Shown here: positions 45,787-53,839 of the stretch, one piece after another
Layout of the letters: each line of letters begins with the position of its first letter
Numbering within the stretch: the first letter of the stretch is position 1
Origin: an uncultured Ruminococcus sp.
GTDB taxonomy: Bacteria; Bacillota; Clostridia; Oscillospirales; Acutalibacteraceae
Reading direction: 5' to 3'
DNA length: 54,479 bases
Assembly (NCBI GenBank): GCA_902793125.1
Contig: CADBCC010000007.1
Coordinates: forward strand, 1-54,479
Notes under the pieces: model-generated
Database searches by the model: none
Told to the model about the DNA's origin: nothing
What the model saw: the letters and a program-made list of their open reading frames with translations, nothing else
Program-made: the position numbers and the translations under genes

Positions 45787-45862
45787 GCATTTGGTTTCTC
45801 GCTTGTTTTTTTCCTGCTTATGTGTTATTATTTTCTTGATTGGAAAAGAAAAGAGGATTAAT

Positions 45863-47368
45863 ATGAGGTATAGCTTTAAAATAATGTCATCCTTACTAAG
45901 CGCGGTGATTCTTATTTCCGCTGTGATATGTATGCCCGTAAACGCTTTGGAGGATACGGAATTAACTGTTCCGAAAATCGTCGTAAATACCGAGAACGGA
46001 AACGGATGCGAGCTTGAAAAGAGCGACGGATATGTAAACGCCGAAATAAGTATTACAGATCTTGACGGTTCTTCCTTGGAGGACAGCGTTAGTTTTAAGG
46101 TGCGTGGAAATACTACTTCTCTTTCGTGGATTGAGAAAAAGGCTTTTACTTTTAAGTTTTCCAAAAAGAAAGACGTGCTCGGTATGGGTAAGGGTAAAAA
46201 ATGGGCGCTTATAGCGAACGCCTTTGACCCTACTTTGCTCAGAAATTACTTAGCGTTTGAAACCGCGCGCGAACTCGGACTTGAATATACATCCAACCAG
46301 AAATTCGTGGAACTTTGGCTGGACGGAAGCTTCAGAGGAAGCTACGTTCTCTATGAACCTGTTCAGGCAGGCGCCGACAGGGTAGATATCGACGTTGAAA
46401 GCAACGACGGAATGAAAGATTTCCTTGTAGAGTATGAAACTGAAACCGCTATGGCGAACGAGGAAGATACATATTTTAAAGCCGAAAATATCCGTTTTAT
46501 CGCCCAGGAGCCCGAAGATCCGAACGATGCGCAGTTAGAATACCTCCAAAATACTTTAGGTGATATTATAAAAGCGTTAAAAACCGGAGATAAGGAGATT
46601 ATAGAAGAAAAAGTCGATTTGCCTTCTTTTGTAAAATACTATATTCTTAATGAGTATTTTAAAACTTACGATTTCAGCGTAACCTCGGTATTTTTCTATT
46701 ATAAAGACGGTAAACTGTACGCGGGACCTCCGTGGGATTACGACTTGTCTATGGGTAATGAAAACGCCAATCTCAGCTCCCAAAGATGTAAGTCCGCAAA
46801 TTCGCCCGAAGGCGTTTTTGCCGACGTGAATCTGTTAGCTTTTATTGCGAAAAAAGATTGGTTTAAGGATATGGTAAAATCCGAGTACGAAGTTCATTAT
46901 GATTATTTTTCAAATATCCATACCGAAGGCGGTATTCTTGATACTATCCGATCAACCTACAGCGATACTATTAACCGTAATTATAATGAAGCGGGCTGGC
47001 AGCCGAGAAGAGCGTGGATTAATATCCAGCGTACGCCCGATTCTACTTATGACGGAAACTATAATTTCCTTAAAAACTGGCTCAGCGAAAGACATAATTG
47101 GTTCGAAGAGTATTTAGAGCCCTTTTCCAGAGAATATATTGTCGGAGATACCGATGGAAACGGTAAGGTTAATATCCGCGACGCTACATATATCCAGCTT
47201 ATTTTAGCGAAAGTAATGTATAATAAACATTATGAGATAAGAGGAAAAGTAACGGGTGATGAGCTGAATATCAACGATACAACCAGTATTCAAAAATACC
47301 TTCTCGGTAAGAATAAAGACAGCGCAGTCGGAGAAACACGAACAGCGCGTTTTGATAAATTAAGTTAA
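45863..47368 (+). CDS. Secreted CotH-kinase-like protein with C-terminal dockerin
   Basis: The ATG at 45863 after AGAGGATTAAT begins the signal peptide (cleavage near residue 28), giving 501 residues; the longer open frame lacks a ribosome site. Residues about 35-420 are a CotH domain: VSFKVRGNTTS, LLRNYLAFETARELGLEYT, GSFRGSYVLYEP and the metal/ATP motif PPWDYDLSMGN. Residues about 428-488 form a type I dockerin with two Ca-loops (GDTDGNGKVNIRDAT and TGDELNINDTTSIQ). CotH proteins are atypical protein kinases in Bacillus spore coats. CotH-dockerin fusions are known from Ruminococcus cellulosomes, where they may phosphorylate or stabilise the complex. Confidence 0.92.
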   Translation: MRYSFKIMSSLLSAVILISAVICMPVNALEDTELTVPKIVVNTENGNGCELEKSDGYVNAEISITDLDGSSLEDSVSFKVRGNTTSLSWIEKKAFTFKFSKKKDVLGMGKGKKWALIANAFDPTLLRNYLAFETARELGLEYTSNQKFVELWLDGSFRGSYVLYEPVQAGADRVDIDVESNDGMKDFLVEYETETAMANEEDTYFKAENIRFIAQEPEDPNDAQLEYLQNTLGDIIKALKTGDKEIIEEKVDLPSFVKYYILNEYFKTYDFSVTSVFFYYKDGKLYAGPPWDYDLSMGNENANLSSQRCKSANSPEGVFADVNLLAFIAKKDWFKDMVKSEYEVHYDYFSNIHTEGGILDTIRSTYSDTINRNYNEAGWQPRRAWINIQRTPDSTYDGNYNFLKNWLSERHNWFEEYLEPFSREYIVGDTDGNGKVNIRDATYIQLILAKVMYNKHYEIRGKVTGDELNINDTTSIQKYLLGKNKDSAVGETRTARFDKLS

Positions 47369-48926: not shown

Positions 48927-48959
48927 GCTCCCATTCTAAGATTGAAAGGAATGTTATTT

Positions 48960-49304
48960 ATGATTGAGAACAGAAATATTGCCCTTTACATCGTGCTTTC
49001 CATCATCACATGCGGTATCTTCGGTTTTTATTGGCTTTATACCCTTAACGAGGATATTAACGCTGTATCAAATGAACCTAATCCGATGTCGAGCGCGCTG
49101 GTTATTGTATTAACAATTATTACTTGCGGTATTTTTGGATGGTATTGGTTATACAAACAGGGTGATAACCTCGATAAGGTAGACGGATCTTCCAACAGCG
49201 GAATTATTTATCTCGTTATCGGAATTTTCGGACTTTCCATTATAAGCTGGGCTCTTATGCAGGATAGACTTAATAAATTGTCTACAAATACGCCCGCTAA
49301 TTAA
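48960..49304 (+). CDS. DUF4234 family membrane protein
   Basis: ATG 48960 lies 9-10 bases after GAAAGGA, giving 114 residues. The protein contains two copies of a helix pattern, VLSIITCGIFGFYWLY and VLTIITCGIFGWYWLY, which define DUF4234, and a third hydrophobic helix near residues 80-98. Function is unknown; it is probably a small integral membrane protein. Its stop codon overlaps the start of the DUF2752 gene (TAATG). Confidence 0.9.
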   Translation: MIENRNIALYIVLSIITCGIFGFYWLYTLNEDINAVSNEPNPMSSALVIVLTIITCGIFGWYWLYKQGDNLDKVDGSSNSGIIYLVIGIFGLSIISWALMQDRLNKLSTNTPAN

Positions 49305-49696
49305 TGAGTAAAAGAATCATAAGAATAGTAAAGCCTACAGCTGTAGTTTTAGCTATAGGCTTTATCTATATAGTTTTGCATTACACTACGGGTTTTTCTA
49401 TTTCATGCCCATTTCATAAGCTTACAGGATTAAACTGCCCCGGATGCGGAGTCAGCCGTATGGCGCTCAATATTCTGAAGCTTAACTTTACCGACGCTTT
49501 CAGGTGCAATCCCGTTGTATTTTGTTTACTTCCCGTATTCGGCGGCTTTTTAGCTGTACATCTGTATAAGTATATACGATACGGTGAATGTTCCTTTAAA
49601 AAATGGGAGAATGCCGTTTTATACTCAATAGCCGTTATTCTTATAGTTTTCGGCGTAGTACGGAATGTTTTTTCCGATTTGTTTTTGATACCGTAA
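49304..49696 (+). CDS. DUF2752 family membrane protein
   Basis: The 130-residue protein has a membrane helix at about 10-30. The DUF2752 motif follows: CPFHKLTGLNCPGCGVSRM (three Cys in CPF and CPGC), then NILKLNFTDAFRCNPVVF. Two further helices come after it. The family is found in many bacteria, often beside DUF4234 or TM2-type proteins; the Cys pair suggests a metal or redox site. Translation is coupled to the DUF4234 gene. Confidence 0.9.
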   Translation: MSKRIIRIVKPTAVVLAIGFIYIVLHYTTGFSISCPFHKLTGLNCPGCGVSRMALNILKLNFTDAFRCNPVVFCLLPVFGGFLAVHLYKYIRYGECSFKKWENAVLYSIAVILIVFGVVRNVFSDLFLIP

Positions 49697-50373: not shown

Positions 50374-50415
50374 AATATCAGCTCAAGTATTCCTGCTTGG
50401 GCTGATATTTTTTGT
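50374..50415 (+). terminator. Rho-independent terminator
   Basis: AATATCAGC(T)CAAG pairs with CTTGGGCTGATATT around an 8-base loop (one bulge), followed by TTTTT. Confidence 0.85.
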
Positions 50416-50487: not shown

Positions 50488-50516
50488 TTGACTTTTAATA
50501 TGGTGTATGATAAAAT
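50488..50516 (+). promoter_or_regulatory. Promoter of the ribozyme-nagB operon
   Basis: TTGACT (50488-50493) and TAAAAT (50511-50516) have a 17-base spacer, about 80 bases before the ribozyme cleavage site. Confidence 0.75.
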
Positions 50517-50598
50517 TTTAGTTGATTAGAGCGTGGTTTTTTCACGTTTTTAATCGCTTATAAAATAGCCACTTGAGAAAGGAGAAGCAGGGACTATT

Positions 50599-50735
50599 AG
50601 CGCCAGGACCGATATGGTTGACGAGGGTTGGCAGTTATCGAAAGACTCGGCGGATGCTGCCACGGCTTCAGGTAAGTCGTTAGAGAGGATTTAAAAAGCA
50701 GAATTAAAACTGTAACAGAGGTTCTCTTAATACTG
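50599..50735 (+). ncRNA. glmS ribozyme in front of nagB
   Basis: The conserved blocks of the glmS self-cleaving ribozyme appear in order: AGCGCCAGGACC (50599-50610), GTTGACGAGG, TTATCGA, TCGGCGGATGC, a P3-type stem ACGGCT with AGTCGT, and AGGATTT, then GAGAGG with TTCTCT (P4-like). Cleavage is expected between A50599 and G50600. In known cases glucosamine-6-phosphate acts as the cofactor that triggers cleavage, and the new 5'-OH end makes the mRNA unstable. The usual target is glmS; here the next gene is nagB. A GC hairpin (CGGCGC, AAA, GCGCCG at 50757-50771) follows before the start codon. Confidence 0.93.
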
Positions 50736-50843
50736 AAATTATTAAAAAGTCTTAATCGGCGCAAAGCGCCGTATCGCAAAAATTATTGTCCGAAAATGTT
50801 AAGCGGTTAAAGACTTAAACACGGACAGAAAGGTTAAATTATT

Positions 50844-51635
50844 ATGAGAGTTATTATTCAAAACGACTACGATAAAATGTGTAAATGGGCGGCTCAGTAT
50901 ATCGCCGACAAAATCAATAATCACAAAGAGGATCGTCCTTTTGTGCTCGGTCTTCCCACAGGTTCTTCGCCTATCGGCGTTTACAAAGAGCTTTATACAA
51001 TGAATAAGGAAGGTAAAGTTTCTTTCGCTAATGTTGTAACATTCAATATGGACGAATATCTCGGACTTCCTCATGAGCACGACCAGAGCTATTGGTATTT
51101 TATGCATGATAATTTCTTCAACCACCTTGTTGATATGAAGAAGGAAAATATCAATATCTTAAACGGTATGACTGACGATCCCGAAGGCGAGTGCGCAAGA
51201 TACGAAGAGAAAATTGCTTCTTACGGCGGAATTGATCTCTTTATGGGCGGTATCGGCGTTGACGGCCATATCGCGTTTAACGAGCCTTATACAAGCCTCG
51301 CTTCACGTACAGGTGTAAGAAATCTTACAACAGATACAAGAATCGTTAACTCGCGTTTCTTCGGAAATGATCCCGAAGCTGTACCCGCACAGGCTTTATC
51401 GGTAGGCGTTGGAACAGTAACCGATTCCAAGGAAGTTTTAATTCTTATCAACGGCCACAATAAAGCAAGAGCTCTTGCCGAGACTGTTGAGGGTTCAGTA
51501 AGCCACAAATGGACTTGTTCAGCGCTTCAGATGCACAATGGCGCGATTATCGCCTGCGACGAAGCTGCCTGCGGCGAGCTTACCGTAGATACATATAAAT
51601 ACTTCCTCGATATCGAACAGAAGGAGAGACTTTAA
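50844..51635 (+). CDS. nagB: Glucosamine-6-phosphate deaminase/isomerase
   Basis: The 263-residue enzyme interconverts glucosamine 6-phosphate with fructose 6-phosphate and ammonia. Motifs: [12 protein letters not shown] for phosphate binding, FNMDEYLGL with the catalytic Asp, the [14 protein letters not shown] loop holding Asp, His and Glu of the active site, and a C-terminal WTCSALQMH. The length matches E. coli NagB. It normally serves catabolism, but here it lies behind a glmS ribozyme and ahead of an acetyltransferase and glmM. Repression by GlcN6P is the wrong sign for a catabolic enzyme. I infer a synthetic role, possibly replacing GlmS. The start follows GAAAGG. Confidence 0.96.
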
Positions 51636-52294
51636 TGTATACAATAAAAGATCTTTATGATCTCGACCATACACTCGCGAAAGATTATCTTTCACAGTTT
51701 ACTTATCCCTGGGAAGCGCTTAAAGGAATTAAGGATTTTATCCTCTCTTTAGGCCCGACTTTAGGTGATGATTATGAACAAAAAGAAGAGGGCGTATGGG
51801 TTCACAAAACCGCGAAGGTATTTCCCTCCGCTTATCTCGGAGCTCCGTGCATTATCGGTCCCGAAACCGAAGTAAGACACGGCGCGTTTATAAGAGGATC
51901 GGCGCTTGTCGGCGCAAACTGCGTTGTCGGCAACTCCGTAGAACTTAAAAATGTTATCCTCTTCGACAATGTACAAACTCCGCACTACAACTATGTAGGC
52001 GATTCTATCCTCGGACATTTCTCCCACATGGGCGCGGGTTCAATTACTTCAAATGTTAAATCCGATAAAAAGCTCGTTGTTGTTCATAACGGAACAGAGA
52101 GCATTGAAACAGGTATCAAAAAGTTCGGCGCTATGCTCGGAGACCATGTTGAGGTCGGCTGTAACGCTGTTTGTAATCCCGGTACCGTTATCGGAAGATA
52201 CTCAAGTGTTTATCCTACATCCTGCGTACGCGGCGTTGTTCCCGAGAATTGTATTTTCAAGAACAGCGGAGAGATTATTGAAAGGAAGTCTTAA
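51635..52294 (+). CDS. GlmU C-terminal-like left-handed beta-helix acetyltransferase
   Basis: The 219-residue protein lacks a uridyltransferase domain. After an N-terminal helix region (about 1-55) it has hexapeptide repeats of a left-handed beta-helix. The segment VELKNVILFDN then PHYNYVGDS and GAGSITSNVK aligns with the GlmU acetyltransferase core (VEVKN, GHLSYLGD, GAGTITCNY), including the catalytic His. It is therefore probably the glucosamine-1-phosphate N-acetyltransferase, with uridylyl transfer done by another protein. The ATG overlaps the nagB stop by one base, and glmM follows 2 bases after its stop. Alternative: a sugar acyltransferase of other specificity. Confidence 0.82.
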   Translation: MYTIKDLYDLDHTLAKDYLSQFTYPWEALKGIKDFILSLGPTLGDDYEQKEEGVWVHKTAKVFPSAYLGAPCIIGPETEVRHGAFIRGSALVGANCVVGNSVELKNVILFDNVQTPHYNYVGDSILGHFSHMGAGSITSNVKSDKKLVVVHNGTESIETGIKKFGAMLGDHVEVGCNAVCNPGTVIGRYSSVYPTSCVRGVVPENCIFKNSGEIIERKS

Positions 52295-52296
52295 TA

Positions 52297-53643
52297 ATGG
52301 GCAAATATTTTGGTACAGACGGCTTCAGAGGCGAAGCCAATAAGGTTCTTACCTTTGAGCACGCTATAAGCATCGGCCGTTTCTTAGGCTGGTACTACGG
52401 CGCTAATATGAATAAAAAAGCAAAAGTTGTTATCGGTAAAGATACACGCCGTTCATCCTATATGTTCGAGTACGCTTTATGCACAGGTCTTATGGCGAGC
52501 GGCGCCGACGCATATATTATGCACGTTACAACAACTCCCTCTGTTGCTTATATTACCCGTACAGATGATTTTGACTGTGGTATTATGATTTCCGCTTCGC
52601 ACAATCCTTTCTATGACAACGGAATTAAAGTTCTTAACAGCAAGGGCGAGAAAATGGAGGAAGAAACCCTCCTTAAAATAGAAGATTATATCGACGGAAA
52701 ACTCGAGATTCCCGTAGCTGAAAAAGAGGCTATCGGCCGTACCGTTGACTATGTATCGGGCAGAAACCGCTACGTAGGTTACTTAATCTCTATGAGCAAA
52801 TACAGCTTTAAGGGCGTTAAGGTTGGTCTTGACGTATCCAACGGAGCTTCATGGCAGATTGCCAAGGGCGTATTCGACGCATTAGGCGCTAAAACTTACG
52901 TTATAAATAACGCTCCCGACGGCTATAATATCAATACCGACTGCGGTTCAACTCATATTGAACATCTCCAGAAATTCGTTGTAGACAATCAGTTAGACGT
53001 CGGCTTCGCTTATGACGGAGACGCTGACCGCTGTCTCGCTGTTGACGAAAAAGGAAATGTTGTTACAGGCGACCATATCATATACATCTACGGACGTTAT
53101 ATGAAGGAAAGAGGAAAGCTCTTAAATAATAAGGTTGTCGCAACAATTATGAGTAACTTCGGACTGTTTAAGGCGCTCGATAAAATCGACATCGGATACG
53201 ATAAGGTTAACGTCGGCGATAAATACGTTTACGAAAATATGGTTCAGACAGGCAACCGCCTCGGCGGCGAAGAAAGCGGACACATCATCTTCTCCAAGTA
53301 CGCTACAACAGGCGACGGTATCCTTACTTCACTTAAACTTATGGAAGTTATGCTCGCTAAGGAAAAGCCGATGAGCGAACTTGCCGCTCCTATGGTAATG
53401 TATCCCCAGGTTCTTAAGAACGTTAAGGTTAAATCCAAACCCGACGCCAAGAACGATCCCGATGTTCAGAAGGCTGTAGAGGCTGTTTCCGAAGCTTTGG
53501 GAGATGAAGGAAGAATCATTCTCAGAGAATCAGGCACAGAGCCCGTTATCAGAGTTATGGTAGAGGCTGATTCCGACGAAACCTGTGAAAAATATGTTGA
53601 CCAGGTTATCGACGTAATCCGTGAGAAAGGCCATATAATTTAA
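52297..53643 (+). CDS. glmM: Phosphoglucosamine mutase
   Basis: The 448-residue enzyme converts glucosamine 6-phosphate to glucosamine 1-phosphate on the way to UDP-GlcNAc. All four active-site loops are visible: the phospho-serine loop ISASHNPFYDNGIK, the metal loop YDGDADRC, the sugar loop GGEESGHII and the phosphate loop LRESGTEPVIRVM. The N-terminal KYFGTDGFRGEAN is the GlmM signature. It is the last gene of the ribozyme-led operon and ends at a terminator. Its presence supports an anabolic, cell-wall role for the whole unit. Confidence 0.97.
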   Translation: MGKYFGTDGFRGEANKVLTFEHAISIGRFLGWYYGANMNKKAKVVIGKDTRRSSYMFEYALCTGLMASGADAYIMHVTTTPSVAYITRTDDFDCGIMISASHNPFYDNGIKVLNSKGEKMEEETLLKIEDYIDGKLEIPVAEKEAIGRTVDYVSGRNRYVGYLISMSKYSFKGVKVGLDVSNGASWQIAKGVFDALGAKTYVINNAPDGYNINTDCGSTHIEHLQKFVVDNQLDVGFAYDGDADRCLAVDEKGNVVTGDHIIYIYGRYMKERGKLLNNKVVATIMSNFGLFKALDKIDIGYDKVNVGDKYVYENMVQTGNRLGGEESGHIIFSKYATTGDGILTSLKLMEVMLAKEKPMSELAAPMVMYPQVLKNVKVKSKPDAKNDPDVQKAVEAVSEALGDEGRIILRESGTEPVIRVMVEADSDETCEKYVDQVIDVIREKGHII

Positions 53644-53655
53644 TTATTATGCTTT

Positions 53656-53690
53656 AAAAGGCTGACTCGGTTTGAGTCGGCCTTTTTCTT
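53656..53690 (+). terminator. Terminator of the nagB-glmM operon
   Basis: AAAGGCTGACTC pairs with GAGTCGGCCTTT (one G-T pair) around GGTTT, followed by a T/C run. Confidence 0.85.
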
Positions 53691-53799: not shown

Positions 53800-53839
53800 T
53801 GAAACATATATGTACTTTTTTACGAAAGGAAGTTTTGAA

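Follow-up and report, generated by a model that had tools for sequence, protein, structure and literature searches.

Why should a glmS ribozyme, a self-cleaving RNA of a family activated by glucosamine 6-phosphate (GlcN6P), precede nagB, a gene of the GlcN6P deaminase family? The question is raised by a stretch of 54,479 nucleotides from an uncultured Ruminococcus sp. (assembly GCA_902793125.1, contig CADBCC010000007.1, positions 1 to 54,479; hereafter, the window), in which such a ribozyme is followed by nagB, a gene for a GlmU-C-like acetyltransferase (GlmUC), and glmM. We consider it probable that this operon is a ribozyme-controlled, ammonia-fed second entry to N-acetylglucosamine 1-phosphate (GlcNAc1P) and UDP-N-acetylglucosamine (UDP-GlcNAc) beside GlmS, with NagB working in the aminating direction.

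The ribozyme and its operon

Infernal, run with the Rfam models, gave a full-model match to RF00234 (all 167 positions, 71.6 bits, E = 1.5e-14; gathering score, 37 bits), in agreement with the original prediction of a clear glmS ribozyme with its conserved blocks complete. The same Rfam search found no second copy in the genome (2.0 Mb, 97.6% complete). The three genes that had been predicted to follow were likewise recovered with family models (Table 1). The acetyltransferase, of hexapeptide type, matched positions 212-393 of TIGR03992 (archaeal-type GlmU) with 139.1 bits, below the full-length cut-off of 292.1, and resembles the C-terminal part of PDB 5z09/2ggo, as expected for a GlmU-type beta-helix domain. 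Its gene overlaps nagB by 1 base and lies 2 bases ahead of glmM. The window NagB retains the catalytic Asp, His, and Glu of DGHIAFNE; among 41 NagB copies of the genus, one has Arg in place of the catalytic His, possibly through an assembly error.

Table 1. Features of the ribozyme-nagB operon and its borders (window positions)
Feature	Position	Strand	Basis
Terminator-like hairpin of the upstream transcription unit	50374..50409	+	Consensus scan
Promoter-like site TTGACT-17-TAAAAT, TG ahead of the -10 box	50488..50516	+	Consensus scan, 10/12 matches; position just before the ribozyme
glmS ribozyme (RF00234)	50588..50737	+	Rfam score; covariation of 39 sequences
Predicted cleavage site, A/G within TTA/GCGCC	50599..50600	+	Presumed from the ribozyme mechanism; TAGCGCC block invariant in 39 sequences
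nagB, glucosamine-6-phosphate deaminase family, 263 aa	50844..51635	+	TIGR00502, 379.5 bits (cut-off 236.9); PDB relatives
GlmU-C-like left-handed beta-helix acetyltransferase, 219 aa, probable glucosamine 1-phosphate (GlcN1P) N-acetyltransferase	51635..52294	+	TIGR03992; PDB
glmM, phosphoglucosamine mutase, 448 aa	52297..53643	+	TIGR01455, 537.9 bits (cut-off 447.55)
Terminator-like stem-loop with T-run, closing the operon after glmM	53656..53686	+	Consensus scan

To assess selection on the RNA, we aligned 39 nagB-cluster ribozymes, namely 26 of 49 copies from the genus, picked by score and length, plus 13 copies taken from other loci; the 23 genus copies left out were mostly low scoring, with long inserts. 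The core blocks were invariant throughout. With the Rfam-derived structure, 93.9% of cells were paired, 17 of 30 pairs showed two-sided change, and compensatory changes occurred in five of six helices. The covariation score of 0.297, compared to a shuffle mean of 0.153, was reached by none of 500 shuffles, and sliding the partners lowered pairing to 30-51%. Since the folding energy of the ribozyme was unremarkable (z = -1.22), we rejected single-strand folding energy as evidence, and the case for a real ribozyme rests on homology and covariation. The RNA thus has both the score and the compensatory changes of the family; it lacks the usual position in a glmS leader, a context that membership in the RNA family does not require. 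A chance match is excluded by the Rfam score, the covariation, and the recurrence in the genus described below. Together, these comparisons indicate that the nagB-linked RNA is under selection.

We then turned to a genus sample of 100 genomes, drawn evenly from a larger group and including the window's own genome. It contained 49 ribozymes in 47 genomes, 46 of them above the gathering score and three below. NagB lay downstream of 47 of the 49, and the other two (L031 and L062) had only 190 and 3 bases left to the contig end, so the predicted conservation of the ribozyme-nagB order in related genomes was borne out. A TIGR00502 NagB was present in 51 genomes, i.e., all 47 with a ribozyme and four with a different NagB; the genomes with window-type NagB and those with the ribozyme are thus an identical set. 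The 40 full-length NagB copies besides the window's were 90.6-95.8% identical to it. With the window excluded, the acetyltransferase gene came next in all 41 loci with at least 1,218 bases downstream, and GlmM was present in all 16 with at least 2,859 bases. A GlmS tree was built from one outgroup and 32 members of the genus, namely the window's genome, G216, and the 30 loci with the best scores; it covers only 9 of the 47 ribozyme genomes. These nine formed one clade (support 100/99), which fits a single gain in the genus with retention since. By these counts, the ribozyme-nagB association recurs far beyond chance in the genus.

NagB in the place of GlmS

The original prediction had also held that glmS ribozymes nearly always precede glmS, and this was confirmed in a class sample of 391 genomes, 148 of which had an RF00234 match (150 hits): leaving out the window, GlmS lay downstream of 143 of 149 ribozymes. 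Two preceded NagB (in G503, with GlmUC and GlmM, and in G384), one (G603) preceded GlmUC-GlmM, and three had no glm gene within the 2.2 kb fetched. In G384 (L406:3378-5937), the ribozyme scores 30.1 bits, below gathering, and nagB is truncated, with ~111 residues that match, ahead of a transposase gene of the IS1634 type. The RF00234 matches over cut-off that had no glm or nag gene in the flank fetched (L019, L330, L360, and L378) may mark other targets or be false matches. In G404 (L308 and L319), two consecutive glmS genes each have their own glmS ribozyme, the upstream open reading frame being just 370 aa. In a family sample (150 genomes, 12 hits), nine ribozymes preceded GlmS, one was the window's, one lay at a contig edge, and one had no glm gene.

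Several of the glmS-linked operons resemble that of the window. G542 (L408) has the order ribozyme-glmS-glmUC-glmM, with the ribozyme in the same position and GlmUC and GlmM 64% and 43% identical to the window's, and its first gene is glmS in place of the window's nagB; G313 has ribozyme-glmS-glmUC, and five others have ribozyme-glmS-glmM. Since operons of the G542 type share the ribozyme and the second and third genes, gene order indicates that NagB occupies the slot of GlmS in homologous ribozyme operons. Compared to the glmS ribozyme of Bacillus subtilis and other Bacillota, the window RNA has the same covariance model, core, peripheral domain, and 5'-leader position, and the same expected GlcN6P sensor, but it precedes nagB-acetyltransferase-glmM rather than glmS, and the glmS of its own genome has no ribozyme. 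NagB itself belongs with the catabolic enzymes Escherichia coli NagB and Bacillus subtilis NagB/GamA in TIGR00502 and has their catalytic Asp, His, and Glu in common; unlike theirs, its gene is linked to GlmM. The residues that we take to be Arg158 and Lys160 of the E. coli allosteric site are Gly and Arg in all 93 NagB copies ~83% identical or more; since 23 of the 26 NagB relatives at greater distance have the same residues, we do not take this loss as specific to the cassette.

Beyond the genus sample, we examined named relatives, the best 80 of at least 589 matched by the window's NagB; these are mostly ruminant gut metagenome-assembled genomes (MAGs), with taxon names as submitted, plus Ruminococcaceae bacterium P7. 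The latter, a cultured rumen isolate that the NCBI taxonomy lists as a species, has the window's gene order in its locus L141, with a NagB 95% identical and a ribozyme of 40.7 bits. A ribozyme above the gathering score was found by Rfam in 35 of the 80 loci (by batch, 18/18, 16/17, 1/18, 0/13, and 0/14). Among the 53 loci whose NagB was 83% or more identical to the window's, 41 had GlmM or GlmUC in the cluster, compared to 3 of the 27 loci below that identity; 33 of the 53 had the ribozyme by Rfam, L187 had it by pattern only, unconfirmed by Rfam at threshold, and L159 had only 95 bases of upstream DNA, too little to judge. Nor did Rfam, at threshold, bear out a pattern hit near 7928 in L180 that would have been a second ribozyme there. 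The gene order varied among these relatives: besides ribozyme-nagB-glmUC-glmM, we found ribozyme-glmUC-nagB-glmM (L149, L151, L154, and L169, in the last of which glmS precedes the ribozyme), ribozyme-glmUC-glmM-nagB (L181), and ribozyme-glmM-nagB-glmS (L205; ribozyme, 55.6 bits). On one contig (L168:6-7945), nagA and a GlmUC-NagB-GlmM set occur together with a second NagB, divergent in sequence, which suggests an apparent split between biosynthetic and catabolic NagB.

The cassette looks to have been transferred horizontally among ruminant gut bacteria, judging from unequal identities within single loci. In four loci with both cassette and GlmS (L157, L169, L183, and L205; GlmS partial in the first two), NagB was 75-90% and GlmM 81-85% identical to the window's, while GlmS was only 49-51% identical. 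MAG binning errors could make single cases but hardly the whole pattern. The seven non-cassette genomes with GlmS that we examined (G151, G159, G171, G074, G216, G246, and G247) have another GlmM, 42-46% identical and adjoining an apparent ruvB (by eye). With the cassette GlmM alone in the ribozyme genomes examined and the other GlmM in genomes without the cassette, displacement of the native glmM by the cassette is the simplest explanation.

GlmS and the surrounding pathway

The locus had been read as a GlmS-free route to UDP-GlcNAc, and this part of the original prediction fell when we searched the genome for glmS. A full GlmS of 609 aa (start MCGIVGY; 771 bits, cut-off 418) is encoded on another contig (G000:C2:100417-102240) by a normal gene with no ribozyme; a weak SIS-domain match in the same genome proved to be a regulator of RpiR type and no enzyme of amino-sugar metabolism. 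Complete or partial GlmS was found in 46 of the 47 ribozyme genomes, in 44 at E <= 1e-100. The match was incomplete, with the gene running off a contig end, in G208, G184, G212, G197, and G225, the last being an end-of-contig fragment. In G155 (8% contamination), the first 44 GlmS residues lead into an unrelated frame inside the contig, probably a misassembly, and the GlmS of G182 (100% complete), broken by a stretch of Ns and a change of frame, was treated as an assembly fault. GlmS was absent from the search results only for G206 (80% complete).

Four genus genomes without the ribozyme differ in this respect. G165 (99% complete, 20 contigs), G204 (92%), G174 (83%), and G189 (66%) gave no GlmS even at E = 1e-3, only weak glutaminase- or SIS-domain matches of at most 41 bits. 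Their NagB is 38-39% identical to the window's and immediately follows a GlmM that is extended at its N terminus (L129:2040-4460; also L130, L131, and L132), and each genome also carries an ordinary GlmM; no Rfam glmS ribozyme was found in the stretches fetched around NagB. The N-terminal stretch of the G165 GlmM, the sole one scanned, contains an HTH_3 (helix-turn-helix, HTH) domain, and the fusion is possibly an amino-sugar-sensing regulator-enzyme. On the evidence of gene content and order, this group lends independent support to NagB feeding GlmM. Of three further genomes, G153 has neither a GlmS nor a NagB match and carries a cassette-type GlmUC-GlmM whose contig ends just upstream, and it therefore probably belongs to the cassette genomes, recovered incompletely; G163 (84% complete) is near the GlmS-less group by two AsnB-type proteins, with neither NagB nor a second GlmM found; and G234 (85% complete) had no GlmS and no NagB match.

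We also searched for the enzymes with which NagB would have to work. NagA exceeded its cut-off in none of the 100 genus genomes, 55 of which had weak matches only (best, 34.5 bits), so there is no NagA-type N-acetylglucosamine (GlcNAc) catabolism for NagB to serve; a catabolic context for NagB, judged by nagA, is thus missing from the genus sample, and in this the window NagB differs from its E. coli and B. subtilis relatives. The operon GlmM was the sole GlmM found in the window's genome at E <= 1e-60 and in all 11 ribozyme genomes examined. GlmU was likewise above cut-off in none of the 100 genomes: 88 matched the uridylyltransferase (N-terminal) half only, which in the window's genome lies at G000:C23:14311-15033, and 12 had no match at E <= 1e-20. 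With GlmU reduced to its uridylyltransferase half, the operon acetyltransferase and the single GlmM look like needed steps. Finally, RNase J exceeded its cut-off in all 16 genomes examined, the window's included, and the known decay route is therefore available.

The direction of NagB

From this gene set, we infer the direction of NagB, the ligand, cleavage, mRNA decay, and the physiological role as follows. NagB would work in the aminating direction, turning fructose 6-phosphate (F6P) and ammonia into GlcN6P. A pull on this reaction would come from GlmM, which converts GlcN6P to GlcN1P, and from the acetyltransferase, which is driven by acetyl-CoA and makes GlcNAc1P from GlcN1P, while the stand-alone GlmU uridylyltransferase encoded elsewhere would complete UDP-GlcNAc. 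When plentiful, GlcN6P would bind the ribozyme, the 5' leader would be cut after A50599, a position that we assign from the known ribozyme mechanism, and the mRNA with its 5'-hydroxyl end would be removed by RNase J, so that the supply of GlcN6P falls. Such a loop would be negative feedback only with NagB as a producer; by the same reasoning, a deaminating NagB would mean that GlcN6P consumers are shut off at high GlcN6P. In gut contents rich in ammonia, the NagB route would spare the cell the ATP cost of glutamine. Because the genome retains a glutamine-dependent GlmS without a ribozyme, the operon would be a second entry and not a replacement. The biosynthetic reading of the original prediction therefore survives in amended form: an aminating NagB best fits the gene set, the sense of the feedback, and the comparative data, but the route is not GlmS-free.

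Several points weigh against an aminating NagB. The full-length GlmS makes NagB dispensable as a maker of GlcN6P in this genome. A reported equilibrium constant of 0.2 M favors deamination at low ammonium, according to the portion of the source consulted (PMC11593775); at 10 mM ammonium and 1 mM F6P, we calculate that ~0.05 mM GlcN6P would be reachable, from which GlmM and the acetyltransferase would pull. The main caution is that, by analogy with Akkermansia muciniphila, an absent GlmS together with NagB does not prove amination. As described in the sections consulted, that organism lacks GlmS, the Km values of its NagB are 41 mM (ammonium) and 5.5 mM (F6P), and it needs GlcNAc or N-acetylgalactosamine (PMC5902328). 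With no GlmS and one NagB, it resembles the four GlmS-less genus genomes; in contrast to what we propose, its NagB acts as a deaminase in physiological conditions, and neither a GlmM neighbor nor a ribozyme is mentioned in those sections (PMC5902328). Some loci do not fit neatly either: in G603 (L405), the ribozyme stands ahead of GlmUC-GlmM with no NagB or GlmS in the operon, i.e., on consumers only, and neither the pattern search nor Rfam gave a ribozyme in 18 of the 53 loci whose NagB has an identity of 83% or more, so the enzyme can occur without the RNA. Amination of F6P by GlcN6P deaminases has been proposed for mammalian GNPDA1 or used with high ammonium in engineered GlmD routes, but these systems are eukaryotic or engineered, and ribozyme control goes unmentioned in the parts of the two reports drawn on here (PMC11593775, PMC12385614).

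The alternative that survives best, which we nevertheless consider unlikely, is that NagB deaminates, draining surplus GlcN6P to glycolysis and travelling with GlmM and the acetyltransferase as one pathway module, whose overall level would be set by the ribozyme. Enzymes of this family favor deamination in the extracts consulted (PMC5902328, PMC11593775), GlmS is available as the producer, and the G603 operon, with the ribozyme on GlmUC-GlmM only, would suit this arrangement. However, shutting off all GlcN6P consumers at high GlcN6P amounts to positive feedback, no NagA was above cut-off in the genus, and NagB stands in the glmS slot of homologous operons. The contig with nagA and a second, divergent NagB (L168) also suggests that catabolism there has a NagB of its own.

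Less probable still is that the ribozyme serves as an ON switch, cleavage removing an inhibitory leader or stabilizing the 5'-hydroxyl mRNA so that high GlcN6P raises NagB, GlmM, and the acetyltransferase as consumers. The gene set and sensor would then be self-consistent with a deaminating NagB, and glmS, itself free of the ribozyme, would supply GlcN6P. RNase J, over cut-off in all 16 genomes examined for it, argues otherwise, for it degrades the 5'-hydroxyl ribozyme product in Bacillus. So do the 143 other class cases in which the same RNA family lies ahead of glmS and the L205 ribozyme ahead of glmM, nagB, and glmS together. In the studied case, moreover, the ribozyme represses glmS, as stated in the part of the report consulted (PMC6171935).

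We give little credence to the ribozyme being a relic of a rearranged operon that no longer cleaves. Genus copies do score lower (31-72 bits) than glmS-linked copies in other genera of the family (75-100 bits), three fall under the gathering score, and many have long inserts. Yet the invariant core blocks, the compensatory changes in five of six helices, and the presence of the ribozyme in every sampled genome with window-type NagB speak against decay. That NagB stands in for a missing GlmS in this organism, an idea that could hold only for the four other genus genomes with their different NagB, is scarcely credible given the GlmS of the window's genome and of nearly all ribozyme genomes.

Returning to the aminating operon, we hold tentatively, as a possibility rather than an expectation, a wider scenario in which the cassette is spreading horizontally among rumen and gut bacteria as an ammonia-fed entry, with RNA feedback, into cell-wall amino sugars. 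It would have ousted the original glmM and would operate alongside GlmS, much as glutamate dehydrogenase does alongside glutamine synthetase; in another lineage of the genus, a second NagB with an HTH-GlmM fusion would have replaced GlmS, all cell-wall amino-sugar nitrogen then coming directly from ammonia. The direction of nagB is usually taken as catabolic, and a GlcN6P-sensing ribozyme fixed ahead of nagB in a clade, with a clear sense of feedback, is an independent genetic argument for GlcN6P synthesis; the debated anabolic role of GlcN6P deaminases thereby becomes directly testable. If amination holds, ammonia-rich guts would have an extra ammonia-assimilating step, the glmS ribozyme would prove tied to the product of the reaction, not to the gene, and the catabolic annotation of nagB would mislead metabolic models. 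A full-text literature search brought up no glmS ribozyme ahead of nagB in the entries and excerpts that it covered; the ribozyme surveys of McCown and colleagues (2011, 2012) were outside it, and an earlier mention is possible. As far as we could check, the RNA family and enzymes are known, and the combination and the implied direction are new.

Of the promoter-like sites in the region, that listed in Table 1, whose -35 box starts at 50488 and whose end lies 71 bases 5' of the ribozyme, is one of the two best scoring; with 10 in the region against an expectation of 8.1 from shuffles, such sites show no enrichment and often arise by chance. Upstream of the operon, adjacent genes encode DUF4234 and DUF2752 proteins (48942-49696), and positions 45791-47368 encode a protein with a CotH domain (Pfam) and a C-terminal repeat that is dockerin-like by eye; an alpha-amylase gene lies in the window at 53810.

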